64,000 nt of DNA from Liolophura sinensis (taxonomy: Eukaryota; Mollusca; Polyplacophora; Chitonida; Chitonidae). The notes beneath the pieces are model-generated. The model had not been told where the DNA came from and made no database searches. It was given only the letters and a program-made list of their open reading frames with translations. Position 1 is the stretch's first letter, and the number at the start of each line of letters is the position of its first letter. Positions 737-56,718 of this stretch are shown here, one piece after another. The stretch lies in contig NC_088304.1 of NCBI RefSeq assembly GCF_032854445.1, positions 13,157,704 through 13,221,703 on the forward strand, in the 5' to 3' direction. A program made the translations under genes and the position numbers.

Positions 737-873
737 CAACATGTAAAGAGGATTCACAAGAAGGAGATGTCTTTCCTCTGCCATCTCTGTCCGTACAAAT
801 GTTTTGTGAAAAGTGAACTGCTACAGCATCTACACAAAGACCATCAGATTCCTCTACCGAGTAAATATGTGCG
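737..873 (+). CDS. gene 1 exon a (finger 1)
   Basis: Preceded by a T-tract and ttacag, followed by gcg|gtgagtaag. It reads QHVKRIHKKEMSFLCHLC and onward, with one finger: CHLC, twelve residues, then H-x4-H. It enters in phase 0 and ends with two bases of an Arg codon completed by the next exon. The GTGAGTA donor is also the first unit of a 19-bp tandem array. Confidence 0.9.
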
Positions 874-3800
874 GTGAGTAAGTGTGCAGTGATTATTAAA
901 GTGTGTTGTGAGTATAAAAGTGAGCAATGAGTATAAAATTGTGCAGTGAGTATTTTTAAGTGTGCTCTGAGTATAAAAGTGAGCAGTGAGTATAAAAGTG
1001 TGCAGTGAGGATTTAAGTGTGCTGTGAGTATCAAAGTGTGCAGTGAGTATTGAAGTGTGCAGTGGGTATTAAAGTGTGCTATGAGTAAGTGACAAGTAGC
1101 AATCCAAAGCTGGGGCCACTTCCAGAAAACGTTTTACAGTGTACATCCCATTTCCTGTAGCTTTGTTTGTAAATGACATTATGTGGCACATCAATGCTAA
1201 CTGCAAATGTTTTTGTTCAGAAACTGAAGGTTATCAGAGCAAATATTTGGTGATAATCGTGTTACGCTTTTACGTTATTTTATCCAACTCCAGTGTTAAT
1301 CCAAATTGCAATTTGTAACTTAGATTTAGCCAGAAATGAACGGTACAAATCCAGACAGTGTATGATTGACTCCGAATGACATGGGTTTGTTCCTCGCTCA
1401 TTTGTCTGGCTGTCAATGACATTACAAGATCTGTCATATTTCTGTAAGCATGGATAACAAGCACCACCAATGACGTGTTTTTTTGGGACAGATATTAGTA
1501 GTGCTGACAGCAGAATATTATATTTCTTTCCCAGCTTTTTGGAAAAGTAAAGATATGAGTATGTTGTCCATGACAGGTAGGTGGACTAACCATGTGAGAA
1601 AAAAGAATCTCAATTTTCTGCTACAATTACAACCAGATGTCCCAAATATTAGAAGAAACAGGGTAATAAGTTATTTTCGTATAATAATAATCTTATAAAA
1701 CTTCTACGGTCTTACAGAATAACTGGTGAACCTTGTCGACAACAATTCTTGTGAAAAATGAATTCATTGTGGTCCCAGAGGATCCCAGAGGAAAGAGAAA
1801 GTTGTAACTTCCTCGCTTGGCGTTCAGCATGAAGGGGATAGTGCAGTGATTGGTTGACCCATATAAGTATAATGGCTCAGGCAGGGCGCCTTACTTGCCT
1901 TTGGTAAGGCATCTCAGTGAAGCAGCACTAGATAAAAGAACGGTGGAAATCCGTCCAGCAACAAGGAGGCAGATTACATGCACTCCAAGGATTCCATCGT
2001 CGTCATATGACTGAAAAATTGTTAAGTACTACATTAAACCCCAAGTACTCACTCACTCACTCACTCCTTCCTGAGTGCATGTAGAACTGCCATAACACCA
2101 TTGTAGTACAAATTTTATCAGTGTCATGCTCATTTTTGTGTGTAAATTCCATGTTTTCTGGAACTGTTTAACTCACCCCTGCAGAATTCATTGTTATGGA
2201 TTACTTCCTTGTTTCAGATACAAGTGTGAGCTGTGTGACTTCATGACGTTTAGAAGGTTCCACTATCTGAATCACATGAATATGCATGAAGGTAAAAATA
2301 AAACATACAGTAAATGGCCTAACATTTCACCCCCAAAAAGTGTATTTTTAGAGGTAAATAAATGTCATGATATATTACGTATGGTGCTGAAACTTACATT
2401 TTCTAGTGGTATATCCTCATACCTGCAAATGAACCTCAAAACACCTTTGTAAGACGAATAAGCTCTCACAGGGAGGCAAAACGTGCAACTTTTTGGCATG
2501 ATTGGAAAATAGCCGTTCAGTGACACAAAAAGTTCAATCTCTCCAAAACCCAGCAGAGTGTCTCTCTTTGTAAGACAAATAAGCTCTCAGAGGGAGGCAG
2601 AATGTGCAACTTTTTGGCATGATTAGAAACTAGCTTTTAGTGGCACAAAAAGTTAAATCTCTCCAAAACCCAGCAGAGTGTCTGTCTTTATAAGACAAAT
2701 AAGCTCTCAGAGGGAGGCAAAATGTGCAACTTTTTGGCATGATTAGAAAATAGCCGTTCAATGGCACAAAAAGTTAAGTCTTTCCAAAACCCAGCAGAGT
2801 GTCTCTCTCCGTCCTGCCAAGCTTGTGCGGTTTATTGAGGTGTGGCGAATATTTGAACTACTGTCACTGATCGACTACCGGTAATCCCCTACTCCCCACA
2901 GAGTGCACAACTTAAGACAACAGCCCTCCCAAGGCATCATGGTATACATTTCCTGAAAATGCGTCTGAAATTATTGAGAAGGTGCAGTAGTTACGGGTGA
3001 AATTTTAGGTTGTTTACGAGTTTACTGTAATTCTTCATCCTCTTCGCATGTTTACAACGTGTTTATTCAAGCCTATTCTAAGGGCATTATTCTGTATGAT
3101 AAAATTATGCTTTTTCTTAAAGCCCCAAAATTGGCCAATCCAACTGAAGTGCATGTAGTCTCCAAAATCAGATTTTATGTGCATAAAGTGTGCTCCTTCG
3201 TATGCAAGGTGAGGTTTGAGGAAGGTTAAAGAATTAGGGAACAGTAATTTAGTAGGATACCTTACTATCAGGGTTATTAAATCACTCCAGTCTAAGCTTC
3301 CTTCCCTTGTCCCTGTACACAAGATTTTAGCAACACTGAGAACAAGTTTCAAATCTTCTTCAAGTTCTTATAGAATTAGGTGCATGTCACATACATTTTA
3401 CGCTTTGCTCAGATGTGAGTACGACGTTAAACCCCAAGCACTCTCACTCACTCACTCACTCACTCAGATGTGTGGACTTGTATGTGTAGCCTATATTTAT
3501 GTTTTACTTTGTTTGCTCGTCAAAAAACACATGTATGTTTGGATATGAACTGTACCCTGAGGTAACCAGTTGTAAGGGATGGATGTGATCTGTGGTAAGG
3601 GTAGCCAGTTGTATTTCTGCAGTATTATAGGTAACCAGATGTATGAAGGTAAACTCTACTACAGACAACCAGTTGTGTGGATATGAGTCAGATCTTTTAA
3701 TTTGAATAGTCATATTTGTTTTGGTCGTTGCAAATAACTGGATGTATAAGTGCGAACTGTGTCATGTTTGGTTTTGGTTGTTGTAGGTAACCGGATGTAT

Positions 3801-6541
3801 GAATGTGAACTGTGGCATGTTTGATTTGGTCATTGCAGGTAACCAGGGGTATGAATGTGAACTGTGTCATGTTTGATTTGGTCCTCGCAGGTACTGTATG
3901 AGTGCAAACTGTGTCATGTTTGATTTGGTTGTTGCAGGTAACCGGGTGTATGAGTGTGAACTGTGTCATGTTTGATTTGGTCATTGCAGGTAACCGGGTG
4001 TATGAATGTGAACTGTGTCATGTTTGATTTGGTCGTCAGGTAACCAGGTGTATGAATGTGAACTGTGTCATGTTTGATTTGGTCGTCAGGTAACCAGGTG
4101 TATGAATGTGAACTGTGTCATGTTTGATTTGGTTGTTGCAGGTAACCAGGTGTATGAATGTGAACTGTGTCATGTTTGATTTGGTCGTCAGGTAACCAGG
4201 TGTATGAATGTGAACTGTGTCATGTTTGATTTGGTCGTCAGGTAACCAGGTGTATGAATGTGAACTGTGTCATGTTTGATTTGGTCGTCAGGTAACCAGG
4301 TGTATGAATGTGAACTGTGTCATGTTTGATTTGGTTGTTGCAGGTAACCAGGTGTATGAATGTGAACTGTGTCATGTTTGATTTGGTCGTCAGGTAACCA
4401 GGTGTATGAATGTGAACTGTGTCATGTTTGATTTGGTCGTCAGGTAACCAGGTGTATGAATGTGAACTGTGTCATGTTTGATTTGGTCGTCAGGTAACCA
4501 GGTGTATGAATGTGAACTGTGTCATGTTTGATTTGGTTGTTGCAGGTAACCAGGTGTATGAATGTGAACTGTGTCATGTTTGATTTGGTTGTTGCAGGTA
4601 ACCGGGTGTATGAATGTGAACTGTGTCATGTTTGATTTGGTCATTGCAGGTAACCAGGTGTATGAATGTGAACTGTGTCATGTTTGATTTGGTTGTTGCA
4701 GGTAACCGGGTGTATGAGTGTGAACTGTGTCATGTTTGATTTGGTCGTTGCAGGTAACCAGGTGTATGAATGTGAACTGTGTCATGTTTGATTTGGTCGT
4801 TGCAGGTAACCGGATGTATGAATGTGAACTGTGTCACAAGAAGTACACCAGCAAGGTCGTTCTCAGATGCCACATGCAGTTTCACAAAGGTGAGAAAAGA
4901 CATATACTGTGAATAAGTTTTGTGCTATGTCTGGTGTCTCCAGCATGGCATTCTAGTGAGGCAGCAGTGAGCCCAGCCTGCTGTAAGGAAACGGTTTTGA
5001 TACGACTGTGTTGAAAATGACATCGAATGTCTGTCACACAAAACCAACAGTGAGATATAAACTGATGAAAGTACGTGCCATTAGTAGCGCTACAAACACA
5101 CTGGGATACAGACAACACTTGTAGGACCATTTAAAGCGATTATCTTTTATGCATTTCAGAGCCGCGTCACAAGTGTCCTTGGGAAGGCTGTAAGTACGCT
5201 GCGGTCCAGAAAAGACGGCTGAACCAACACATCCAGTTGATCCACACTCATAAGGTAATACACCTCGCTGTGAGACTTGATTGTGTCTGGTTGGTTTTAG
5301 ACGCTAGTGCTTCAGTCGCTAGGACAGACAAGGTGTTAGTGCAATCAGTCCCACAGAGTGTTCGAAACCGTCTCTTTATTGATGTCAGACCATCTGTTCT
5401 CAGCTCATTATGATGTCGCTTTAAAGATAGAACAAGAAACCATTTCCTTGTAATACTGTAGATGAGTAATGTAATTAAGTTCCTTAATATCTTTTTCTTT
5501 CTGTCATTTTTGTCTTTGCATCAGGATGTAAAACCATTTGAGTGTCACCTGTGCACATACAAGTCTGCATTAAATGGGAACTTGAAACTTCACTTACGTA
5601 ACGTTCATCACCTCAATCTTCCCAAACGCCAGATGGTGAAGTGGAAAGGGGAGACCACTGTGTCTGATAACGTGGAAGACGAGGTCAGCTCTTCAGTGGT
5701 TGCATATGATGAAAAGAATCCCACGCTGTTGTCCATTAACCGCTCTGATATTGTAAGGTTAGCCGTTGCCAGCTGTGAAGACATTAGCCCTGTGGCCACT
5801 CCAGATGTGGAGGAGAACACCACAGAAACAGTGGTTATTTACACCACGGACCCAATGCTTCCTGCACAAGTAACCGCAGCGCAAGTATTGCAGCAGCTTA
5901 GCAGCGGTAATCCCATCGGGCACGCCCCCTCCACGACAGTTACTGAGACGGTAACAATTGTATCGCAGGCAGGCACGATCAGTCATCTTTCAGAGGCATC
6001 CCAGGAACATGAACTCTCAGTGAAGAATGAAAGAGGGGAGATAATCCATAGGTCATATGGTCACATGGCAGGGGAGATAACAACAGGTGTAGCAGAGGAC
6101 ATGAGGAGTGATCTTAATGCAGAGATCCACATACCAGTGAGTAAAGAATTGTCTCAAGATACAAGACAAGACACACATGCGAGGCATTCAGACATGGCAT
6201 CTCGTGACCTTCAGAGTGATCTGACCCATCTCAGCCAAGATCTGAACTCACAAATTTATGTCACCAACAGAGAGGTCAACGATGGGATGATTAGAGAAAT
6301 GCAGATGGGGGAATTGTCCCCCAATAGAGATGGGTCAGGTGACGTGAGAGCGACTTCGACCTCTGACCTGGGTCGTGACTCCCAGCGTGACTCCGGACTG
6401 GTCATTCAGGAAATCATGAATGCTCAGTACCCGCCAGAAACTTTCCTTCCTGATTCAAGAAATCTAAACATCATGATACAGTCCATGGAAAATAGAGAAG
6501 GCTTTGTTTCTCAACCAAACACCTACTGGACACAGTACTAA
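737..6541 (+). CDS. gene 1: C2H2 zinc-finger protein, 5'-incomplete, five exons in the window
   Basis: Joined exons 737-873, 2218-2291, 4806-4889, 5160-5254 and 5525-6541 give 1407 nt, 468 codons plus TAA, with phases matching at every GT-AG junction. Five C2H2 fingers are visible. Finger 1 is C-x2-C-x12-H-x4-H. Fingers 2 and 3 are C-x2-C-x12-H-x3-H. Finger 4 is C-x4-C-x12-H-x4-H. Finger 5 is C-x2-C-x12-H-x4-H. The last roughly 300 residues are Ser/Thr/Asp/Glu-rich and look disordered. C2H2 proteins of this type usually bind DNA in the nucleus; that role is inferred from the family. No start codon is in the window, so more exons must lie upstream. I do not recognise the orthologue. Tandem arrays flank two of its splice sites and fill its 3' UTR. 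Confidence 0.9.
874..1100 (+). repeat. 19-bp array seeded on the splice donor of exon a
   Basis: About 12 imperfect units of 19-21 bp, consensus gtgagtataaaagtgtgca, start exactly at the exon donor. Most units keep GTGAGTA or a one-base variant, so the intron opens with a row of donor-like sequences. Nothing else is seen up to about 1765. Confidence 0.85.
1101..1764. other. intron of gene 1, no feature seen
   Basis: AT-rich intron sequence between the donor array and a SINE-B copy. No convincing exon or repeat was found. Confidence 0.6.
1765..2067 (+). mobile_element. SINE-B copy, 5'-truncated
   Basis: Matches the copies at 33690 (+), 28632 (-) and 51665 (-). Shared blocks are gttgtaacttcctcgcttgg, ttggttgacccatataagta, gaagcagcactagataaaag, cgtcgtcatatgactga and an end like taaaccccaagtactcactc. 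The tRNA-like head is absent. It lies in a gene 1 intron. Confidence 0.8.
2218..2291 (+). CDS. gene 1 exon b (finger 2)
   Basis: Acceptor ttgtttcag before 2218 and donor g|gtaaaaa after 2291. It completes the Arg codon from exon a and encodes YKCELCDFMTFRRFHYLNH followed by MNMHE, a full C-x2-C-x12-H-x3-H finger. It leaves one base (G) for the next exon, which starts with GT to make Gly. Confidence 0.9.
2446..2807. repeat. three tandem copies of a 120-121-bp unit
   Basis: Copies begin at 2446, 2567 and 2687 with tttgtaagac-like starts. They share gcaactttttggcatgatt and ctccaaaacccagcagagtg. The array lies within the intron between exons b and c of gene 1 and is non-coding. Confidence 0.85.
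2808..3410. other. intron of gene 1, no feature seen
   Basis: Unique-looking intronic sequence with no convincing exon. The ORFs here overlap on both strands and have no domain. Confidence 0.5.
3411..3467 (+). mobile_element. SINE-B 3' end fragment
   Basis: Sequence like gagtacgacgttaaacccca followed by a (ctca)n run, the 3' end of SINE-B. Only about 57 bp remain. Confidence 0.65.
3550..4805 (+). repeat. 50/52-bp array copied from the acceptor and start of exon c
   Basis: About 20 clear units between 3775 and 4805, with decayed ones back to about 3550. Each unit carries the acceptor-like end (gttgttgcag or gtcgtcag) followed by gtaaccaggtgtatgaatgt and gaactgtgtcatgtttga. The real exon c starts with the same bases but continues tgtcacaagaagtac. 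Read in the phase used by exon c, each unit gives GN(Q/R)VYECELCHV and then TGA. Units are 52 bp with TTGCAG and 50 bp with GTCGTCAG. In the centre they alternate one 52-bp unit with three 50-bp units, a 202-bp higher-order repeat. Units to the left are more diverged. Confidence 0.92.
4806..4889 (+). CDS. gene 1 exon c (finger 3)
   Basis: Acceptor gtcgttgcag before 4806 and donor g|gtgagaaa after 4889. With the base from exon b it reads GNRMYECELCHKKYTSKVV and onward to HMQFHK, a complete C-x2-C-x12-H-x3-H finger. Its first 30 or so bases are the source or the surviving end of the upstream array; only this last unit runs on into a complete finger. Confidence 0.9.
4925..5050 (+). mobile_element. 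possible SINE-C fragment
   Basis: The stretch from ctatgtctggtgtctccagc through aggcagcagtgagccc resembles the body of the SINE-C copies at 48925 and 60680. It is diverged and headless, so the call is tentative. Confidence 0.4.
5160..5254 (+). CDS. gene 1 exon d (finger 4)
   Basis: Acceptor tgcatttcag before 5160, donor aag|gtaata after 5254. It encodes EPRHKCPWEGCKYAAVQKRR and onward to QLIHTHK. This is a C-x4-C-x12-H-x4-H finger, with wider Cys spacing than the others. It ends in phase 0. Confidence 0.9.
5525..6541 (+). CDS. gene 1 last exon (finger 5 and C-terminal tail)
   Basis: Acceptor tttgcatcag before 5525; 338 codons then TAA at 6539-6541. It opens DVKPFECHLCTYKSALNG and finishes a C-x2-C-x12-H-x4-H finger within the first 30 residues. 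The rest is rich in Ser, Thr, Asp, Glu and Gln, with no further Cys-His pairs; it may be an activation or protein-binding region (inference). The ORF extends upstream to 5462, but those residues are intronic. Confidence 0.92.
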   Translation, partial: DVKPFECHLCTYKSALNGNLKLHLRNVHHLNLPKRQMVKWKGETTVSDNVEDEVSSSVVAYDEKNPTLLSINRSDIVRLAVASCEDISPVATPDVEENTTETVVIYTTDPMLPAQVTAAQVLQQLSSGNPIGHAPSTTVTETVTIVSQAGTISHLSEASQEHELSVKNERGEIIHRSYGHMAGEITTGVAEDMRSDLNAEIHIPVSKELSQDTRQDTHARHSDMASRDLQSDLTHLSQDLNSQIYVTNREVNDGMIREMQMGELSPNRDGSGDVRATSTSDLGRDSQRDSGLVIQEIMNAQYPPETFLPDSRNLNIMIQSMENREGFVSQPNTYWTQY

Positions 6542-6594: not shown

Positions 6595-7283
6595 GGTGCA
6601 GTTCTAACTAGGTTCTCCAAGAAGCCACCAGTAGTAAAAGTGCACTTCTAACTTGGTTCCCCAAGAAGCCACTAGCAGTAAAGGTGCACTTCTAACTTAG
6701 TTCTCCATGAAACCACCAGCACTAAAGATGCACTTCTAACTTGGTTCTCCAAGAAACCACCAGTATTAAAGGTGCACTTCTAACTTGGTTCTCCATGAAA
6801 CCACGAGCATTAAGGATGCACTTCTAACTTGGTTCTCCAAGAAACCACCAGTATTAAAGGTGCACTTCTAACTTGGTTCTCCAAGAAGCCACCAACAGTA
6901 AAGGTGCACTTCTAACTTGGTTGTCCAAGAAGCCACCAACAGTAAAGGTGCACATCTGACTTGGTTCTGCAAGAAACTACCTCTTCCAAGTGGGTTCTCA
7001 AAGAAGCCACCAGCAGTAAAGGTGCTCTTCTAACTGAGATCTCCAATAAGCCACCAGCAGTAAAGGTGCATATCTAACTTGGTTCTCAAAGAAACCACGA
7101 GCAGTTAAAGATGCACTTCTAACTGGGTACTCCAAGAAGCCACCAGCACTAAAAAAGTGCATGTTTAACAGGGTTCCCACCTGTACTAAAAAAAAAGTGC
7201 ATGTTTGACAGGGTTCCCTAAGAAGCCACCAGCAATAATGGTGCACTTCTGAGTTCTCCAAGAAGCCACGAGCAGTAATGGCC
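6595..7283 (+). repeat. 44-bp minisatellite in the 3' UTR of gene 1
   Basis: About 15 units of 44 bp (a few shortened) start 55 bp after the stop. Typical pieces are cttctaacttggttctccaa and gaagccaccagcagtaaagg. In the sense strand each good unit can form two small stems: CTTGG-ttct-CCAAG, and AGAAG..CACC-(9 nt)-GGTG..CTTCT. Some units break one stem without a compensating change. Confidence 0.88.
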
Positions 7284-8080: not shown

Positions 8081-8354
8081 TGATTGATTTTTCTTTTTTT
8101 TTGATTGGTGTTTTACGCCGTGCTCAAGAATATTTCACTTATACGACGGCGGCCAGCATTATGATGGGTGGAAACCAGGCAGAGCCCGGGGGAAACCCAC
8201 GACCATCCGCAGGTTGTTGCCAGACCTTCCCACGTACAGCCAGAGAGGAAGGCAGAATGAGCTGGTCTTGAACTCACACCGACCACATTGGTGAGAGGCT
8301 TCTGGGTCATTACCCTGCGCTAGCGCGCTAACCGACTGAGCCACGGAGGCCCCC
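8081..8354 (-). mobile_element. full-length SINE-A with target-site duplication
   Basis: On the minus strand it starts gggcctccgtggctcagtcg, with a tRNA box A (tggctcagtcggttag) and box B (gagttcaag), then the central body, then gcgtaaaacaccaatcaaaa. A 13-bp direct repeat, catgccaaaggat, flanks it at 8068-8080 and 8355-8367. This fixes the insertion limits and orientation. Confidence 0.93.
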
Positions 8355-8358
8355 CATG

Positions 8359-8475: not shown

Positions 8476-9489
8476 AGGAGAGTCACACAACCTCTCCAAA
8501 TTGGAGAATGGGTATAAAATTCTTTCCACAGAACTCCCTTTTCATTAATTCATTATAGTGTTATGAATGAATAGCGATGGTTTTAGTTATACATATGATA
8601 TAGATGTGGGTTTGTATGTATTAAAATTTTGAAAGGAAACTAGTTAGAGCTACATGTGTGTGAGGTGTTAATACTGTTATTGTTTGAGGGTAACTATTGT
8701 TACATGCATACATCTTGATATAAGGGGAATGGCAATTGCGTTAACAGTTTTTGTCGTGAGCTAAAGCCAGGAACAAAATGTGTTGTGGAAAAAAAAACAT
8801 TTTCAAACCCAGTTGTCAGATGGTCTGGAATATTGATTGTTTGCCATAATCATAGCCACGTAATGAAATCAGTGTCACCTGACTGCTTCAAAACCACTGT
8901 TTTTTTTGTCATGACTTTATCATGACGAAGTGCCCAGCTAATTTGTTCCAGGAATTTTTGCTGGTGAAAACTGAAAAAGTTGAATTTTTTAATGCTTACA
9001 GGCATACAAGTTCATTTTCAGGATTTTTTTGTATTGTTGTTACAGTCATGTTTACAATTTGATAGTTGTTCAGTTTAGCTATACCAATAAACTTAGTTAT
9101 TGTTTTTACAGGTTAGCATGTTAATTTATTGTGTCTCTAATGTTCACTTAATATACAGCCCTTAAGATGTTGACATGATAAGAAGAGGTCCGTGATCAAG
9201 CCAGATAATTATCTTGGTTCTGCAATACTGATATGCAAATTGGGGTAAGCGGCCACTGCTTAACACTGGTTAAGACTTACTTGGTAACGGGGTGTTATGT
9301 AAGCACTATGGACTTCCAGGCTGGGAGAATTTCCCTTTAGTGCAATGGTAAAAGTGATGTATTCACCATTACCAAATCCCAGAAATTGCCCATTCAAGTC
9401 CCTGGCTGGTAGCCCTGTCACGGTAAGCCCTATATTTTACTTGTTTGAATCAGTTGTATTTTGAGGCTTTTTCAGGCTGTGTTTCCTTC
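8476..9489. other. intergenic, no feature seen
   Basis: AT-rich sequence with no convincing gene or repeat. Confidence 0.5.
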
Positions 9490-22000: not shown

Positions 22001-25000
22001 GTACTTAACCTTATCTATCTCGTTTACAGCTAGGCTACTCTAATGATGACATCCTGTGGCACATTCGGGAAAAAAAAACTCATCCTCGAATATTTGGCGG
22101 CGTCCTAGCTGGTCAAATCTGAGACCTGTGTACACCAGGAAGAGGGAGGGGGTCAAAAGGTGACTTTGGGCTGACTGACAAGCTGACTGACTCACTGACT
22201 AACTGGCTGACTAACTTGCAGTATTAATGATTGACTGACTAAGCCGCACAAAAAAGAAGCCGTATAAATGTACACATATTAGTGTTGTTTCTTGCTTACT
22301 CTCAAAAAAAACCCACACACAATCTGTTAAATTTAATAGAAAATCTGTTGTCTGAGTGATGCTAGAATGTATTCTGTTAGTGTACCAGCAGCAGATTATT
22401 CTGTTAAATACGGCACAAATATTCTGGTTATTCAACATAGGGATTCTATTAGACTAACAGGCTGTTGTTTTGAATATAACACAATTTTATGTTATAATAA
22501 CAGAATGCATTCTAACATCACTCAGACAACAGGCTTTCTGTTAAAGCTAACAGAATATTTTCTTGAGTGTAGAGTGCAGACTCCGAACCCTGCCTGTAAA
22601 GCAGACGTGCCAGGATTTGCAGTGTGTTCGGGTACTGTGCATCACTGCGGGTGTTCATGACACCTCTTATATGCAGAAGTTAAAATTAGGCAATTAAGAT
22701 CACGAGATGCTACCATAACAGTTATAGCATCTCCTCACAGGTCAGTTTCTGGCGGACCGTTGCCAAAACAACGCTGATTCCAAAGCCAATCAACGGTCTG
22801 TACATTCTTCAGCAGTTCCCATTCTGCTGTAACATGCGCCAGACGTATAACATCAATGGCTACTTGTGGTGATGGGATATACGTAACCATAGTAAATGGA
22901 CTTGACATAGCGGCATGAGGGCTTCGGTTAATTTTGCATAAAATCAGATTGATACAAACAGTAAAAAGTTGGTGCTGAATTGAAGAGAAAAAGCTGCTGA
23001 GAATTTCTTAAGCATTTCGTTATAACCTGAAACTGATGGTGTTTTAATGCCAGATATTATGTAATTTTATCTTTCTTTTGTGAAACATGGAGCTATACGA
23101 TATCGTCTGTAAGAAAGTAAATTGGTCTTAAAACAAATGTAGAACAAATGGAAATATCTGCTCTGGCCAACAAGTTCGTTAAGATTACTACTGTACACAG
23201 TTGCAAAATTGCATGACCTGCATGTTAACTAGGCCATAAGGTTACGTCATCGGCTTACGCCTACAGCGTCGTTATCACACCTGTTATCACACATTGCGGA
23301 TGTTTGTGGAATGAGCCGATAAGGAGCCAAACTGAACACCCCCTAAAATTCTACCACACAACTTTCTTTGCGTGATTCCTGAAAATAAGATTCGTTCACT
23401 CAAACTCAGATTTGGTAGACAGGCTTCTAAAGAGCTCGACTCCAGGAGACATATGAATGGAAAAGTTTAGTTCAATATATAAAGTACTGAAATCGTGAAT
23501 TTGGTAATTGAACAAGTAAAACTTGTTCATAAATACATGTTAAATACATGTTATCTATATATTAGTTAAATATAATGAGATTGCCTGTTCCGATTTTATC
23601 TGTATTGCGATTAATACTAGCAAAAGCCGAGGTAACACAAGTCTAGATATAACCATGTAAATCTTTGTTTTACAGTGCGGGTTACCTCTGGTGGTCTCCA
23701 CTGCTGGCTTTACGTGTCACACTGACTTCTTTGTTTTACAGCGCGGGTTACCTCTAATGGCCTCCACTGCTGGCATTACGTGTCACATTGACCTCGCATA
23801 TCTCCTTGAGCACGTGCCTTCCTGGGGTATTATCTAAATTAACACTGCCATATGGTACACTGTTCACTTGGTAGATGCACTATCGTATGTGGCCAGGTTC
23901 TATACTAATTACACAGATAGTTTCTATATAGCATATTGTAAACCGGACGTCTGCCATATTCGCGACATAGATTCTTTCATTTTAGAAGGAATTGGAATAT
24001 ATTACAAATAGTGCGATCGATCATTAGTTAGTTAGCTATTTATTTATCGGGAACCTTGACCGCTCAAAATGACTCGGGCGTAAGCGCTATAGTATAAATA
24101 TGTTATTCATTCTTGGCTTTGTGATGGCGTTTTGTGGGTAAACTAGTTACGTATTAGACAAATATTGTAAGAAGTATTGGTCAGTGCGCCGGTCACCCAT
24201 GCAAGTAAGCACTGGGCAGGGAAAGATACTCAATTGGTTCGATTTGTTCTTGACTCTGTGCCTAAGATCGATTTACGTGGATTCTAGTCTGTGTAATAGG
24301 ACGTTTCTGATTTTTGTTCCATGAATCGATATACGAACTCCAGATTTGATAGCGAACATTGTTTTCCAAGTTTCCAGTATTGGAAATTTGAATTTGGAAG
24401 GAATTTGTTTTGCACCTACACAGCTTATGAAGATGTACATTCGGGCCAACTATAGTGACGCATATAAAGGCGGACGGTCTAACTTACCCGTTTTTCTTTA
24501 TCTATTTACTGTGCGAACTGTATGGCCCATTTCATTGCTGGACGGAATATGTGAAGAAAACAGAGGCAATCGTTCCACACCGGAAGTAAATTCGCACCGA
24601 ATTGTAGGCCGGGCAAATTGTGAAGAACAAGTGCCACATGGCCCTTATTGTAAGCAAGTAATGTTTGGTTGAGGTCTAAAGGTCCTTAGGCTGGCTTGTA
24701 AAGGAATGACCGGGAGAGGTCCTCATATGGCCTGGGATGTCTAGGTTAATTTTAGCAGTTGTAAAGACCTTAGACAAACTCGGATGTTCTCTTTGAAGAA
24801 CAGTCATTTAAAGAGGCTTCTCTGGAGGGGTTTTTTTTGCGGGAGAGGGGCCGGGAGGGGCGGCAAATCTTCGATTAGCGCAAATTAAATCAATGTTTTA
24901 CTGATATTGTAGAATACTCCAAATAATGACCTTTGAAAAATGTCAGCATCGTCTGTGCACATGTTACTCTTAATATAGTTTCTAAAATTTCTAAAATTTA

Positions 25001-41900: not shown

Positions 41901-43546
41901 ATAGGTCAGCCTGATATTAATGGATGTTTTGGTTAGGTCATGTAGAATTTAAGAATTCAGGGGCGATTCAGGTTGTTATTGCGTTTTAAGGATCTGGGAT
42001 GAAGATATTTTAGTCGTCAAAAGAATGGAAGAATGCAATAACTGGCCAGTTTGATATATAAAGACAAATATGTAACAATGAACCAGGACAAAAATATAGC
42101 TTAATAATGGAAATTTACATTAGATAACGAAAACGATTCCAGGGATTTCACAAAGATGTCGTACATATACGATAATCGCACATCTAGGACAATGGTCCGC
42201 TAATAGTGTGGTACAAAATATCGCACGACAAATGTACGATAAACAATGTTGTACGCCACTTGGTGAAACTGGGCCATGGCGTTTACGTAGCTTAAACTGT
42301 TTAAGAATAACATTGCTTGCTTTCGGCTGTAACACTGAGACCTCGTAACTATGTCTAATTGTAGGAAAGGGAGAGCCAAGTAAGGGAGGTAGCTTTTCCT
42401 GCGGAAGCCATCGTTACCTCGAAGCCACCACAGGGTGTACTAAAAACTGGACGCTCGCCCTCCACGGAGCCAAAGCGTGTCCGTCTGCAGGCAGAGAGGG
42501 ACACGGGTTTCTCTGGAGGGACCGGTTTCTCCGGAAGTGGGGGGCAAGCGACGCAGTCCCTGAGCTCCTCGCTGCTGACAGAAAAGTTTCCTCTGCGTTC
42601 TCCGGAGTGGAAGGAAGAGCAACAGAAAACCCAGGTGAAGACGGTGTCCTCTTCTTCTTCCGGTGGCTCCGATCTGACGACCACAGAAAATCATTACGAG
42701 ACCCTTCCCCTAAAAGTGGACCCCGACCCTGCCACCGCCCGACGGCCCGGGCAGGTATTCTCACGGTCCCAGGAGGCCGAGGTCTCCAGGCATGCCAGCT
42801 CCACGCAAGTCGTCTATCCTCAGCAAGCGACAGGGTTTGTTGTAACGACGTTCAAGCCTCCTCCACCGCCAGTGTATCCCCCGCAGTCCACAAACCTCAG
42901 TTCCTCCTCTTCCTCCTCCACTGCTTACAGGTCCGGATCCCCAGCTTTCCAGCGCGAATACGGTCCCTCTATCATTTCCTCTCCTTTTCCAATTGCCGGT
43001 GGTCAGTACCGCCAATCCTCGACTGAACGGCAATATCAGTCTGGCGGTCAGTTTGGACAAGCCTCTGAGCAGCAGCAGCATCAGACCGGTAGTCATTATC
43101 GTCAATCCTCAACCGAACAGCAGTATCATCCCGGTGTTCAATACAGCCAGTTCTCAACGAAGCAGTATCACCAGCCCGGAGGTCAGTCTAGTCAGTTCTC
43201 CACGCAGCACTATCAGACCTCGTCTCAATCTCGCTCTGGTGGCCAGTTACATCACTTCCACGAGCCATCTCCTTCGCGTTCCGCGGGATCCGTGCAGCAT
43301 TATCACGTGACCTCGGAAACCCGGCCAGTCAAAATCCAACAATATTACCACACCGTTCCTCAACCAATGACGGCAAACCAACGCCAGATGACGTCAGAAT
43401 ATCACTGGGCCGACATGGGTGCTAAGGTTCCTCCGCCGGGAAGTAGATCGGCTGGAGATGAGATGACCTTTGAGGACCATAGGTCATCCAAGATGAGTTT
43501 GTACGACAATCTAAATGGTTGGACAGAGGGAAGTGCAACTATGTAA
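18870..43546 (+). CDS. gene 2: two-pass membrane protein with long Gln/Ser/Tyr-rich tail
   Basis: Exons 18870-19018, 39487-39610 and 42365-43546 join in phase into 484 codons plus TAA. Residues 25-48 and about 54-80 are hydrophobic segments separated by only a few residues (GTG-S-VLSP), so both termini probably face the same side. The second segment ends in a Cys-rich stretch (LCPSCILC). Residues 92-484 are polar and probably disordered. They include five prolines followed by VYPP (256-264, containing a PPxY-type WW ligand), tyrosine motifs YETL (202-205) and YDNL (471-474), and imperfect QYxQxSTxxQY repeats (about 303-386). I do not recognise the family. WW-protein binding and sorting are inferences from the motifs. 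Confidence 0.85.
21389..21530. mobile_element. 142-bp MITE-like inverted repeat
   Basis: The left end agggcccagttgtttaaaag is mirrored by the right end ctttgaacaactgcgccct, with about 22 of 27 bp matching. It has no ORF. It is a single copy in this window. Confidence 0.7.
22297..22571. mobile_element. MITE-1 copy 2
   Basis: Same long inverted ends as copy 1: aatctgttaaatttaataga and tctgagtgatgctagaatgt on the left, with the mirror on the right ending in ttcttgagtgta. It is longer than copy 1 because of a central insertion or expansion. Confidence 0.82.
23663..23794. repeat. two tandem copies of a 66-bp unit
   Basis: Both copies start ctttgttttacag and continue gcgggttacctct, with cactgctggc and tacgtgtcaca. 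Each start looks like a splice acceptor, but no open reading frame with a matching donor follows. Confidence 0.8.
26683..26757 (-). mobile_element. SINE-A deletion derivative
   Basis: The minus-strand end gtacggcgtaaaacacctat with (AAAT)n is joined directly to a caacctg/tcttccagcaac part. The body between has been lost. Confidence 0.65.
28385..28565 (+). mobile_element. SINE-D-like dispersed repeat
   Basis: Shares gacaacgctcgag..., cactgaagatcttacactga, tggtgtgtatatcac and cagtaaacttgccaaaggtc with the copy at 9763. It ends near a gtgaaatattcattaatac stretch. Confidence 0.6.
28632..28981 (-). mobile_element. SINE-B, full length
   Basis: On the minus strand the tRNA-like head is gcccggatagcacagttggt followed by agagcgtccgcttcgggacc, then gatcctt-type box B, the body with aagaggaagttgtaacttcc, and the 3' end acgttaaaccccaagcactc. 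The head stem-loop resembles a tRNA anticodon arm. Confidence 0.88.
29608..29753 (+). mobile_element. SINE-A 3' half
   Basis: From cgtacgtgggaaggctttgc through gccgccgtcgtataagtgaa to gcgtaaaataccaatcagaa. The head is missing. Confidence 0.85.
30369..30415. repeat. (gtgc/gt)n microsatellite
   Basis: A run of tgcg and tg units about 47 bp long. Confidence 0.95.
30440..30590 (-). mobile_element. SINE-C head, antisense
   Basis: Contains tgttgagcaccaagcgagac, gtaccatttttgaagtcttt and gatcctgggtcttccgactt. On the minus strand this matches the SINE-C head and body at 51502. It joins a SINE-A tail at 30600. Confidence 0.65.
30600..30668 (+). mobile_element. SINE-A 3' end fragment
   Basis: Has atcgtagaagtgaaatatta, gcgttatgcaacaatcaaat and an (AAAT)n tail. 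Confidence 0.75.
31046..31156 (-). mobile_element. SINE-A, 5'-truncated with internal deletion
   Basis: The minus-strand end with (AAAT)n and gcgtaaaacaccaagcaaat is present. The ccagcattatg..gagcccg block is missing between cgacgtcg and gaaacccacgaccatccgca. Confidence 0.85.
31907..32013 (-). mobile_element. SINE-A with the middle deleted
   Basis: Its 3' portion (tcaagaatatttcacttata, cgacg) joins directly to the 5' portion (agcgaccgcattggtgagag to actgagccacggagaccccc). The head with box A is intact, while the body and box B are gone. Confidence 0.88.
33690..34001 (+). mobile_element. SINE-B, full length
   Basis: The head ccccgatggctcggtagagc has a good tRNA box A. It is followed by a perfect 5-bp stem with a 7-nt loop, TCCGC-ttcgagg-GCGGA, like an anticodon arm. 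A caattctggg box B-like segment follows, then the body with gttgcaacttcctcgcttgg. The 3' end is gtacaacgttacacccaaag. Confidence 0.9.
34131..34280 (-). mobile_element. SINE-A 3' half
   Basis: The (ATTT)n tail side and gtgttttaagccgtactcag through gacggcggccagcattatgg to atccgtaggttgctggcaga. The tRNA head is missing. Confidence 0.88.
35919..36006. repeat. (aat)n microsatellite
   Basis: Long AAT run with interspersed atg. It directly follows a stretch ending ctaaaaaccggtgagcaag, which may be the end of an unnamed mobile element. Confidence 0.92.
36452..36760. repeat. two diverged tandem copies of a roughly 154-bp unit
   Basis: Copies start near 36458 and 36612 with cacgttc..gttgct. They share ctcttgggatgac, aaagtttgtcgaga and ttcgaatacac/atc blocks. 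Confidence 0.65.
36768..36880. repeat. diverged copy of the sequence after gene 2 exon 2
   Basis: Pieces such as tggacgttccgagtcaaaaa, acacaaaccac and gaaagaactaagaag match 39656-39748 in order, with a 7-bp gap that changes the frame. Exon 2 itself is not duplicated here. Confidence 0.65.
36881..38033. other. intron 1 of gene 2, no feature seen
   Basis: No supported gene, exon or repeat. ORFs up to 83 codons have no domain. Confidence 0.5.
38034..38176. mobile_element. 143-bp MITE-like inverted repeat
   Basis: The left end tggtccgggatcggtttcat (then gaagcatgctta) mirrors the right end taagcttcatgaaactggcc then cctggacca. The arms are about 30 bp. It has no ORF. Confidence 0.75.
38177..39008. 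other. intron 1 of gene 2, no feature seen
   Basis: AT-rich; nothing supported. Confidence 0.5.
39009..39126. repeat. 41-bp minisatellite, about 2.8 copies
   Basis: Units share aactgacaagaggccg and ttcactgagataaactg. Short and GC-richer than its surroundings. Confidence 0.85.
39487..39610 (+). CDS. gene 2 exon 2 (second membrane segment)
   Basis: Acceptor ctttcttccag before 39487; donor aag|gtaaga after 39610. It completes Ser50 and encodes VLSPIGAVFLGLGLSLLAIC, then LLLCPSCILC and QVHPDQSTQTK. This is one hydrophobic helix with a Cys cluster at its cytosolic or luminal edge. If the donor is not used, the frame stays open for 46 more codons to a TGA at 39749-39751. Confidence 0.85.
39934..39956. 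repeat. poly-G run
   Basis: Twenty-one G in 23 bases, directly before a SINE-A head. Length is likely to vary and be assembly-sensitive. Confidence 0.9.
39957..40210 (+). mobile_element. near full-length SINE-A
   Basis: Head cggctccgtggctcagttgg with box A, box B-like gtgagttaaagtccag, body, and the end gcgtaaaacaccaatcaatc with a short AAAT tail. Confidence 0.9.
41650..41884 (+). mobile_element. SINE-A, diverged with deletion
   Basis: Head ccccggtctccgtggccgaa, box B-like gtgagttccag, then cttccttttcaacaacctgc (a small deletion of the gccgtacgtgggaag part), body and the end cgtaaaacaccaatcaaata. Confidence 0.87.
42135..42275. mobile_element. MITE-like inverted repeat
   Basis: Left ccagggatttcacaaagatg then tcgtaca; the right mirror is tgtacgccacttggtgaaac then tgggcc. 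The arms are imperfect, about 28 bp. It lies in intron 2, 90 bp before the last exon. Confidence 0.5.
42365..43546 (+). CDS. gene 2 last exon (disordered tail)
   Basis: 393 codons and TAA at 43544-43546. It starts in phase 0 after ctaattgtag, reading ERESQVREVAFPAEAIVTSK. The tail is rich in Ser, Gln, Tyr, His and Gly. Imperfect repeats of 18-20 residues around QYRQSSTERQY and QYHPGVQYSQFSTKQY resemble prion-like regions. GC content and codon use are clearly higher than in the flanking introns, which supports coding. ORFs on the opposite strand here are shadows. Confidence 0.88.
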   Translation, partial: ERESQVREVAFPAEAIVTSKPPQGVLKTGRSPSTEPKRVRLQAERDTGFSGGTGFSGSGGQATQSLSSSLLTEKFPLRSPEWKEEQQKTQVKTVSSSSSGGSDLTTTENHYETLPLKVDPDPATARRPGQVFSRSQEAEVSRHASSTQVVYPQQATGFVVTTFKPPPPPVYPPQSTNLSSSSSSSTAYRSGSPAFQREYGPSIISSPFPIAGGQYRQSSTERQYQSGGQFGQASEQQQHQTGSHYRQSSTEQQYHPGVQYSQFSTKQYHQPGGQSSQFSTQHYQTSSQSRSGGQLHHFHEPSPSRSAGSVQHYHVTSETRPVKIQQYYHTVPQPMTANQRQMTSEYHWADMGAKVPPPGSRSAGDEMTFEDHRSSKMSLYDNLNGWTEGSATM

Positions 43547-53024: not shown

Positions 53025-56000
53025 CCCAGGAGAGCACAAGGGAGACAGCACACATATAAAAAGAAGTACTGGAAAAAAATTCCAAGCCATCAAAAACTTG
53101 GTATCTTCCATCATACAAGATTATTCCATGAGAGTGAGAGTACAAGGGAGACAGCACACATACAAAAAGAAGTACTGGGAAAAAAGTTCCAAGCCATCAA
53201 AGACTGTATCTTCCATCATACAAGATCATTCCATGAGAGTGAGAGCACAAGGGAGACAGCACACATATAAAAAGAAGTACTGGAAAAAAATTCCAAGCCA
53301 TCAAAAACTTTGTATCTTCCATCATACAAGGTTATTCCATGAGAGTGAGGACACAAGGAAGACGGCACACATATAAAAAGAAGTACTGGAAAAAAGTTCC
53401 AAGCCATCAAAAACTTGGTATCTTCCATCATACAAGATCATTCCATGAGAGTGAGAGCACAAGGAAGACAGCACACATATAAAAAGAAGTACTGGAAAAA
53501 AGTTTCAAGCCATCAAAAACTTTGTATCTTCCATCATACAAGATCATTCCATGAGAGTGAGAGTACAAGGGAGACAGCACACATACAAAAAGAAGTACTG
53601 GGAAAAAAGTTCCAAGCCATCAAAAACTGTATCTTCCATCATACAAGATCATTCCATGAGAGTGAGAGCACAAGGGAGACAGCACACATATAAAAAGAAG
53701 TACTAGAAAAAAATTCCACGCCATCAAAAACTTTGTTTCTCCCATCATACAAGATTACTGCATGAAAGTGAGAGCACAAGGGAGACAGCACACATATAAA
53801 AAGAAGTACTGGAAAAAAGTTCCAAGCCATCAAAAACTTTGTATCTTCCATCATACAAGGTTATTCCATGAGAGTGAGAGTACAAGGAAGACAGCACACA
53901 TATAAAAAGAAGTACTGGAAAAAAGTTCCAAGCCATCAAAAACTTGGTATCTTCCATCATACAAGATCATTCCATGAGAGTGAGAATACAAGGGAGACAG
54001 TACACATACAAAAAGAAGTACTGGGAAAAAAGTTCCAAGCCATCAAAAACTGTATCTTCCATCATACAAGATCATTCCATGAGAGTGAGAGCACAAGGGA
54101 GACAGCACACATATAAAAAGAAGTACTGGGAAAAAAGTTCCAAGCCATCAAAAACTGTATCTTCCATCATACAAGATCATTCCATGAGAGTGAGAGCACA
54201 AGGAAGACAGCACACATATAAAAAGAAGTACTAGAAAAAAATTCCACGCCATCAAAAACTTTGTTTCTCCCATCATACAAGATTACTGCATGAAAGTGAG
54301 AGTACAAGGGAGACAGCACACATATAAAAAGAAGTACTGGAAAAAAATTCCAAGCCATCAAAAACTTTGTATCTTCCATCATACAAGGTTATTCCATGAG
54401 AGTGAGAGCACAAGGAAGACAGCACACATATAAAAAGAAGTACTGGAAAAAAGTTCCAAGCCATCAAAAACTTTGTATCTTCCATCATACAAGATCATTC
54501 CATGAGAGTGAGAGCACAAGGAAGACAGCACACATATAAAAAGAAGTACTGGAAAAAAGTTTCAAGCCATCAAAAACTTGGTATCTTCCATCATACAAGA
54601 TCATTCCATGAGAGTGAGAGTACAAGGGAGACAGCACACATACAAAAAGAAGTACTGGGAAAAAAGTTCCAAGCCATCAAAAACTGTATCTTCCATCATA
54701 CACGATCATTCCATGAGAGTGGGAGCACAAGGGAGACAGCACACATATAAAAAGAAGTACTGGGAAAAAAGTTCCAAGCCATCAAAAACTGTATCTTCCA
54801 TCATACAAGATCATTCCATGAGAGTGAGAGCACAAGGAAGACAGCACACATATAAAAAGAAGTACTAGAAAAAAATTCCACGCCATCAAAAACTTTGTTT
54901 CTCCCATCATACAAGATTACTGCATGAAAGTGAGAGCACAAGGGAGACAGCACACATATAAAAAGAAGTACTGGAAAAAAGTTCCAAGCCATCAAAAACT
55001 TTGTATCTTCCATCATACAAGATCATTCCATGAGAGTGAGAGCACAAGGAAGACAGCACACATATAAAAAGAAGTACTGGAAAAAAGTTCCAAGCCATCA
55101 AAAACTTTGTATCTTCCATCATACAAGATCATTCCATGAGAGTGAGAGTACAAGGGAGACAGCACACATACAAAAAGAAGTACTGGGAAAAAAGTTCCAA
55201 GCCATCAAAAACTGTACCTTCCATCATACAAGATCATTCCATGAGAGTGAGAGCACAAGGGAGACAGCACACATATAAAAAGAAGTACTAGAAAAAAATT
55301 CCAAGCCATCAAAAACTTTGTTTCTCCCATCATACAAGATTACTGCATGAAAGTGAGAGCACAAGGGAGACAGCACACATATAAAAAGAAGTACTGGAAA
55401 AAAATTCCAAGCCATCAAAAACTTTGTATCTTCCATCATACAAGGTTATTCCATGAGAGTGAGAGCACAAGGAAGACGGCACACATATAAAAAGAAGTAC
55501 TGGAAAAAAGTTCCAAGCCATCAAAAACTTTGTATCTTCCATCATACAAGATCATTCCATGAGAGTGAGAGCACAAGGAAGACAGCACACATATAAAAAG
55601 AAATACTGGAAAAAAGTTCCAAGCCATCAAAAACTTTGTATCTTCCATCATACAAGATCATTCCATGAGAGTGAGAGCACAAGGAAGACGGCACACATAT
55701 AAAAAGAAGTACTGGAAAAAAATTCCAAGCCATCAAAAACTTAGTATCTCCATCATACAAGATCATTCCATGAGAGTGAGAGTACAAGGGAGACAGCACA
55801 CATATAAAAAGAAGTACTGGAAAAAAATCTAAGCCATCAAAAACTTTGTATCTTCCATCATACAAGATCATTCCATGAGAGTGAGAGCACAAGGAAGACA
55901 GCACACATATAAAAAGAAGTACTGGAAAAAAGTTCCAAGCCATCAAAACATTGGTATCTTCCATCATACAAGATCATTCATGAGAGTGAGAGTACAAGGG

Positions 56001-56718
56001 AGACAGCACACATATAAAAAGAAGTACTGGAAAAAAGTTCCAAGCCATCAAAAACTTTGTATCTTCCATCATACAAGATTATTCCATGAGAGTGAGAGCA
56101 CAAGGGAGACAGCACACATACAAAAAGAAGTACTGGGAAAAAAGTTCCAAGCCATCAAAACTGTATCTTCCCTCATACAAGATCATTCCATGAGAGTGAG
56201 AGCACAAGGGACAGCACACATATAAAAGAAGTACTGGGGGGGGGGGGAATTCCAAGTCATCAAAAACTTTGTATCTTCCATCATACAAGGTTATTCCATG
56301 AGAGTGAGAGCACAAGGAAGACAGCACACATACAAAAAGAAGTACTGGAAAAATTCCAAGCCATCAAAAACTTTGTATCTTCCATCATACAAGATTATTC
56401 CATGAGAGTGAGAGTACAAGGAAGACAGCACACATATAAAAAGAAGTACTGGAAAAAAGTTCCAAGCCATCAAAAACTTGGTATCTTCCATCATACAAGA
56501 TCATTCCATGAGAGTGAGAGCACAAGGGAGACAGCACACATATAAAAGAAGTACTGGAAAAATTCCAAGCCATCAAAAACTGTATCTTCCATCATACAAG
56601 TTCATTCCATGAGAGTGAGAGCACAAGGAAGACAGCACACATATAAAAAGAAATACTGGAAAAAAGTTCCAAGCCACCAAAAACATTTTATCTGCCATCA
56701 TACAAGATTATTCCATTG
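53025..56718. repeat. 3.7-kb satellite, about 35 copies of a 106-bp unit
   Basis: Each unit has acagcacacatataaaaaga, agtactggaaaaaagttcca, agccatcaaaaactttgtat and cttccatcatacaagatcat. Units differ by single bases or by 1-2 bp. A variant unit with actagaaaaaaattcc, tttgtttctcccatc and actgcatgaaag recurs at about 53701, 54229, 54863 and 55287, which is 5, 6 and 4 units apart. The period is 1 mod 3, so any frame rotates from unit to unit and the many 70-100-codon ORFs on both strands are not genes. Indels and a poly-G run (56236-56247) appear toward the right end. Confidence 0.95.

Follow-up and report, generated by a model that had tools for sequence, protein, structure and literature searches.

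A probable mirage-type minisatellite at the acceptor of a zinc-finger exon in the chiton Liolophura sinensis, and boundary-spanning arrays at exons of other genes

Why does a zinc-finger exon in the chiton Liolophura sinensis lie behind 20 near-copies of its own splice acceptor, and what does such an array mean for the gene that carries it? An original prediction, made from the sequence of this locus, described the array and offered two readings of it, either a poison-exon or splice-dampening array or a minisatellite that had started at the edge of the exon. We analyzed the 64,000-nucleotide stretch of contig NC_088304.1 that contains the array (hereafter, the window), and exons of other genes were sampled elsewhere in the genome.

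The host, gene 1, lies on the forward strand. Exon a (737-873), preceded by ttttacag, followed by gtgagt and open in the joined frame, exon b (2218-2291), exon c (4806-4889) and exon d (5160-5254, in the same joined frame) each encode a C2H2 finger, and the coding part of exon e (5525-6541) encodes the last finger and the C-terminal tail. Joined together, exons a through e form a single open frame of 468 residues, the sole stop of which is the terminal TAA at 6539-6541. Exon b ends at 2291, as had been predicted, with the donor AAG|GTAAAA. The fingers matched C2H2 structures, with CTCF as the best match at the level of the family only, and their match to the Pfam C2H2 model was weak and below the cut-off. 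A BTB-domain frame (E 8.9e-21) ends approximately 1.4 kb upstream of the first base of the window on the same strand, and a C2H2-finger frame lies on that strand approximately 0.6 kb upstream; gene 1 is therefore probably a BTB-zinc-finger gene, with a putative chain of exons in between. Exon c is 84 nt long and starts with GTAACC. Each of its two junctions falls after codon position 1, so skipping of exon c would remove one finger and leave the frame intact.

The array occupies 3787-4805 on the forward strand, within an intron of 2.5 kb, and directly adjoins exon c. Cutting at AGGTA gave 20 consecutive units (11 of 52 bp, 8 of 50 bp, and 1 of 47 bp), all of which start with GTA and end with AG, and the units were also aligned to one another. 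TRF reported an array at 3709-4836 with a period of 52, 22.1 copies, 93% matches and a score of 1827, as well as a higher-order period of about 202 bp made of the 50/52-bp units. An array of 22 copies cannot be the product of chance, and only the array at 53030-56716 outscored it in the window. Each unit consists of 19-21 nt of the end of the intron between exons b and c followed by 26-31 nt nearly identical to the start of exon c, and thereby spans the authentic intron-exon boundary. Local alignments at 3560, 3629, 3715 and 3765 identified further units, decayed and the oldest of the array, at 3560-3786 on the same strand, so that concerted evolution inside the array is accompanied by decay at its edge. 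The description of the array in the original prediction was upheld. Two other tandem repeats were detected by TRF in or next to gene 1, one with 3 copies of a 120-bp unit in the same intron (2445-2808) and one with a 44-bp unit that begins about 50 bp past the stop codon of the gene (6595-7153).

The decoy acceptors end at 3786, 3838, 3890, 3937, 3989, 4039, 4089, 4141, 4191, 4241, 4291, 4343, 4393, 4443, 4493, 4545, 4597, 4649, 4701 and 4753. The authentic acceptor AG follows at 4804-4805 (forward strand), and exon c then carries the open frame on with a complete finger. Over the upstream 19-21 nt, decoy and authentic acceptors are nearly identical. The pyrimidine content of the exon c acceptor is 0.60, the lowest of the five acceptors of gene 1 in the window (0.65-0.75 for the others).

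When exon b was joined to each decoy, an early stop resulted in all 20 cases, as is expected of a poison exon. Nineteen of the products read EGNxxYECEL[C/W]HV before the stop, and the product of the decoy at 3890 reads EGTV and then stops. The claims that each unit holds the codons of exon c up to the second Cys and that any decoy would yield the same truncated protein are thus nearly, but not exactly, correct, since the product of decoy 3786 is without that Cys and decoy 3890 stops sooner. One interpretation of these products is that use of the decoys would generate truncated transcripts that are degraded, with the number of units setting the output of the gene. Both the position of the stops, right past the half finger in 19 products and sooner in the remaining one, and the close likeness of decoy and authentic acceptors agree with this interpretation, which is weighed below against the arrays found at other genes.

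Because exon c itself starts with GT, every unit junction reads AG|GTA and is an acceptor and a donor motif in one. All 21 junctions, the first at 3786/3787 and the last at 4805/4806, contain AGGT, and most of them read CAG|GTAACC; the original prediction had mentioned neither these junctions nor the donor-side array at exon a described below. By sequence reading, splicing of exon b to a unit would create a new junction, AAG|GTAACC, that again resembles a donor, so that a second splice could erase the use of a decoy. Donor strength was calculated as simple pairing with the 5' end of U1, which is a crude measure. Pairing was -11.0 kcal/mol for the donor of exon a, -6.8 for exon b, -9.6 for exon c and -6.6 for exon d. 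The unit junction in place had a value of -8.0 kcal/mol and the donor regenerated after a decoy splice a value of -6.5, such that the donor of exon c pairs better with U1 than both the array junctions and the regenerated donors.

These junctions raise the possibility of a ladder for recursive splicing, in which each AG|GT junction would act as a zero-length exon: exon b would splice to a unit, the donor would reform, and the intron would be removed stepwise, with the same step at exon c skipping that exon in frame, minus one finger. The layout from GTA to AG in 20 of 20 units is what such a ladder would need, U1 pairing of the regenerated donor (-6.5) differs little from that of the donors of exons b and d, the in-place junctions are stronger still, and skipping of exon c preserves the frame. 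Two-way AGGT sites have also been published as dual-specific splice sites, including tandem repeats in human UBC and VCX3A which, in the accessible portion of that report, resemble the present array in having AGGT in each unit and units bounded by possible 5' and 3' splice sites; in UBC the units belong to the coding sequence, stay in frame and have lengths divisible by 3, whereas the exon c units are intronic, 47-52 bp long and contain a stop (PMC10809524). Recursive-splice YAG|GT exons with early stops have been reviewed, and from what that review offers in its available part, they likewise place GT directly after an acceptor and yield an early stop if retained, but they are single, reportedly conserved sites in long introns (PMC5126111). 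The locus studied here instead has a homogenized array in a 2.5-kb intron.

Other observations make the ladder unlikely. Among the four acceptor-side arrays that we identified, only that of exon c has AG|GT junctions (1 of 4), the others having AG|AG, AG|AT and AG|GA; the AG|GT junctions thus seem to be a by-product of the GT with which exon c starts. The donor-side arrays L060 and L072, from the sampled kinases described below, also have AG|GT, as do many donors. Furthermore, the bases at +5 and +6 of the unit junctions (CC) are poor for a donor, and the decoy dinucleotides showed no significant extra conservation. An intron of only 50-52 nt would be very short, which counts against the removal of single units, although steps of several units would escape this limit.

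The origin of the array can be read from its units. They encode, in frame, the first half of a C2H2 finger, the remainder of which is present in exon c only. In addition, exon c and three of the four 5'-most recognizable units (3631, 3733, and 3787) share GATG, whereas the outermost unit (3560) carries GTTG and most interior units carry GGTG. The half finger in frame and the exon-like GATG at the 5' edge indicate that the array was copied from the exon and was then homogenized inside, and they support the start of a minisatellite at the exon edge and the direction of copying that the original prediction had put forward. A DNA search of the 609-Mb assembly returned 21 matches to the unit, all of which were in the window's own stretch, with only the best candidates scored. 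We considered and rejected an origin from a transposon or introner, as the unit is the sequence of exon c itself and was matched only here among these best candidates. Near-identical 50/52-bp units are difficult to assemble, and the array could have been inflated, or its true number of units could differ. An assembly artifact is nevertheless very improbable as an explanation of the array, because unit variants and the decayed units at the edge follow an orderly progression, comparable arrays were found at independent loci, and the copies of the boundary would exist even if their count were wrong.

A second boundary array in gene 1 lies on the donor side of exon a (868-1092, forward strand), and was detected by TRF (880-1087), by unit alignment and by the edge test, which flagged it from 862 or 868. 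This array starts at the splice junction and comprises 10 further units of about 19 bp around GTGAGTA, with the GT kept in 8 of 10 units. In most units GTGAGTA is preceded by TGTGCA or TGTGCT, and the exon ends in TGTGCG. The exonic overlap is short (about 6-12 nt) and the identity lower (0.79), so that an origin from the exon is less certain than for the array at exon c.

Exons of two other gene families were sampled for boundary-spanning arrays. For the kinases, 40 partial exons were hand-picked among the shorter of 138 matches before their sequences were read; for the kinesins, 29 stop-free exons were taken in list order from 132 matches, with two overlapping ones omitted and several coming from one gene. 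Boundary-spanning arrays were present at 6 of these 69 exons (138 match edges), 3 at acceptors and 3 at donors. Five were in kinases (5/40; L040 and L042 at acceptors, and L052, L060 and L072 at donors) and one was in a kinesin (1/29; L081, at an acceptor). L072, with little over 2 copies, was missed by the BLAST edge test, found by TRF, and counted after reading. Arrays at six other loci (the kinases L057, L067, L070 and L076 and the kinesins L078 and L086) fell short of an exon edge or were without one and were rejected on reading; L078 and L086 had initially been picked up by the BLAST edge test. No arrays were found at 30 further kinase loci (L007-L036), a result that says little because the match edges there are mostly inside long frames and are mostly not exon edges. 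The clearest acceptor-side arrays were those of L042 (857-1432 in match orientation, 6 aligned copies) and L081 (1-625 in match orientation, 9 aligned copies). In L060 (1571-1914 in match orientation), 5 decoys in tandem, each reading AAAG|GTAAGC, lie after the authentic donor of the kinase exon, AAAG|GTATGC.

The recurrence of boundary arrays in this genome is thus firm. Whether they are enriched at exon edges is uncertain. When the observed arrays were placed at random around the match edges, which served as proxies for exon edges, the kinases had 5 observed against 0.71 expected (P = 0.0005), and the kinesins had 1 against 1.13 (P = 0.71). Both samples together gave 6 against 1.84 (P = 0.007), and arrays of at least 3 copies gave 5 against 1.39 (P = 0.009). 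When plain array density served as the background for 138 edges, the window predicted 1.62, L007-L036 predicted 0.67, the two samples predicted 1.35 and 2.04, and the window, L005 and L007-L036 pooled predicted 1.12; the 10-kb L005 alone gave 2.9 (P = 0.07). The enrichment is not firm, since the kinesin follow-up did not repeat the excess. If it is real, as the kinases would suggest, plain random seeding would be an incomplete account of where such arrays begin.

Constraint on the decoy sites was assessed by pooling 8 arrays, the 2 in gene 1 and the 6 sampled. Of 70 aligned units, 62 retained the splice dinucleotide. Matches to the authentic copy did not differ significantly between splice-dinucleotide columns (131/140) and other columns (2741/3023; Fisher P = 0.30), but units of the same array do not count as independent observations, which makes this pooled comparison weak evidence for neutrality. 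Gene 1 alone offers too few independent changes to judge selection on AG or GT. Across the 8 arrays, the decoy dinucleotides are visibly neither purged nor preferentially kept.

These results bear on the special poison or dampening role that the original prediction had proposed. Similar arrays at 6 of 69 exons of other genes, 3 of them on the donor side, and decoy sites without significant extra conservation both argue against such a role, as does the report, within the available text of the sources, that equivalent arrays in amphioxus are splice-neutral (PMC3087553, PMC3902484). We therefore regard a regulatory role of this kind as improbable, although a weak poison effect is conceivable.

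The interpretation we favor, and consider likely, is that the array is a mirage minisatellite, one copied from the edge of an exon, neutral, and largely ignored by splicing. It may have begun with tandem duplication of a segment of about 52 bp that reached from the last part of intron b through roughly the first 31 nt of exon c. The array would then have expanded and homogenized through ordinary tandem-repeat turnover, leaving decayed units at its far edge, and would have remained intronic. The spliceosome would mostly pick the copy that is joined to the complete exon, despite near-matching decoy acceptors, and exon definition could account for this choice, in that an entire exon body with a good donor behind it is found only at the authentic copy. 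Occasional use of a decoy would lead to degradation, given the early stop, or would be erased by a second splice at the recreated AG|GT donor. In each boundary array, we took as authentic the site attached to the complete exon; this geometry fits exon definition, yet it also follows from the way in which such arrays form. In L060 the decoy donors form the stronger pairing with U1 (-9.5 versus -5.7 kcal/mol for the authentic donor), so local strength alone cannot explain why the authentic site is chosen, if indeed it is; L060 thereby offers a natural test of how the donor closest to the exon is selected. A broader proposal, which we offer tentatively and hold to be doubtful as a whole, is that a mutational process favors duplication of splice junctions, that a few percent of boundaries bear decoy ladders which splicing ignores, and that the ladder at exon c is self-erasing through recursive splicing.

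The mirage interpretation places the exon c array among known structures. The mirages of amphioxus (Adh3, TnC, the globins BflGb6 and BflGb9, and PGBD5) are minisatellites that span exon boundaries, and the exon c array is of the same kind. In the available portions of the sources, the globin and Adh3 mirages are suggested not to disturb regular splicing, including by RT-PCR for globin (PMC3087553), and the Adh and TnC mirages are said to give no aberrant mRNAs, with PGBD5 being similar (PMC3902484). The mollusc array is larger, with 20 units compared to 6 and 3 in two haplotypes of BflGb6, as given in the accessible text on that gene, and it differs from the amphioxus mirages in having AG|GT at every junction. 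Tandem repeats have been described at human exon-intron boundaries, and, as far as the available part of that study shows, these are alike in that duplicated boundary DNA yields candidate splice sites (PMC2812944). In mollusks, intron 3 of an abalone TSSK1-like gene contains a 27-bp minisatellite that differs in length between individuals; it is likewise an intronic minisatellite, and a span across the exon edge is not described in the accessible part of the paper (PMC6905558). Neither this paper nor a second molluscan minisatellite paper describes an exon-edge array in the portions available. Among the matches listed in literature searches, from which subscription journals were largely outside coverage, no mirage was reported for a mollusk, and no title on duplicated or decoy splice sites concerned tandem genomic arrays. 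The exon c array is apparently, then, a known kind of structure in a new host lineage. Introns are also reportedly gained through tandem duplication of AGGT segments, a process that shares with this array the production of candidate splice sites from duplicated boundary DNA and differs from it in that the exon c array is without a demonstrated new intron or exon.

Several other features of the window and genome were recorded. TRF found 2 copies of a 66-bp unit at 23662-23792 that starts TCTTTGTTTTACAG and looks like a duplicated splice acceptor, and the large array at 53030-56716 has about 35 copies of a 106-bp unit and a higher-order period of 423 bp. No Pfam match at E 0.01 was obtained for ten long frames in other parts of the window or for the frame of 393 codons, open from stop to stop, at 42365-43543. 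The segment at 8100-8355 appears to resemble a SINE of marine invertebrates, and a similar piece seems to be present in frames of L005 near 8740-9030. The molluscan hemocyanin domain PF14830 had 8 matches inside about 11.4 kb of the genome, and one hemocyanin unit matched hemocyanin structures, including KLH1, which, like the others matched, is presumably molluscan. These matches point to a mollusk as host and not to amphioxus, which had been considered because mirages are a feature of that group; the GFP family (PF01353) gave no match here or in control genomes and is uninformative on this point.

If several percent of mollusk exon edges carry boundary arrays, these arrays would be a recurrent phenomenon in animals. 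Arrays this common would contribute to the growth of introns and might also give rise to new ones. They would also constitute a large set of natural experiments in splice-site competition within single introns, in which the competitors are 20 near-identical acceptors, as at exon c, or, in the case of L060, donors of greater strength than the authentic one. The choice of the spliceosome among equal sites would then become testable from ordinary RNA-seq.
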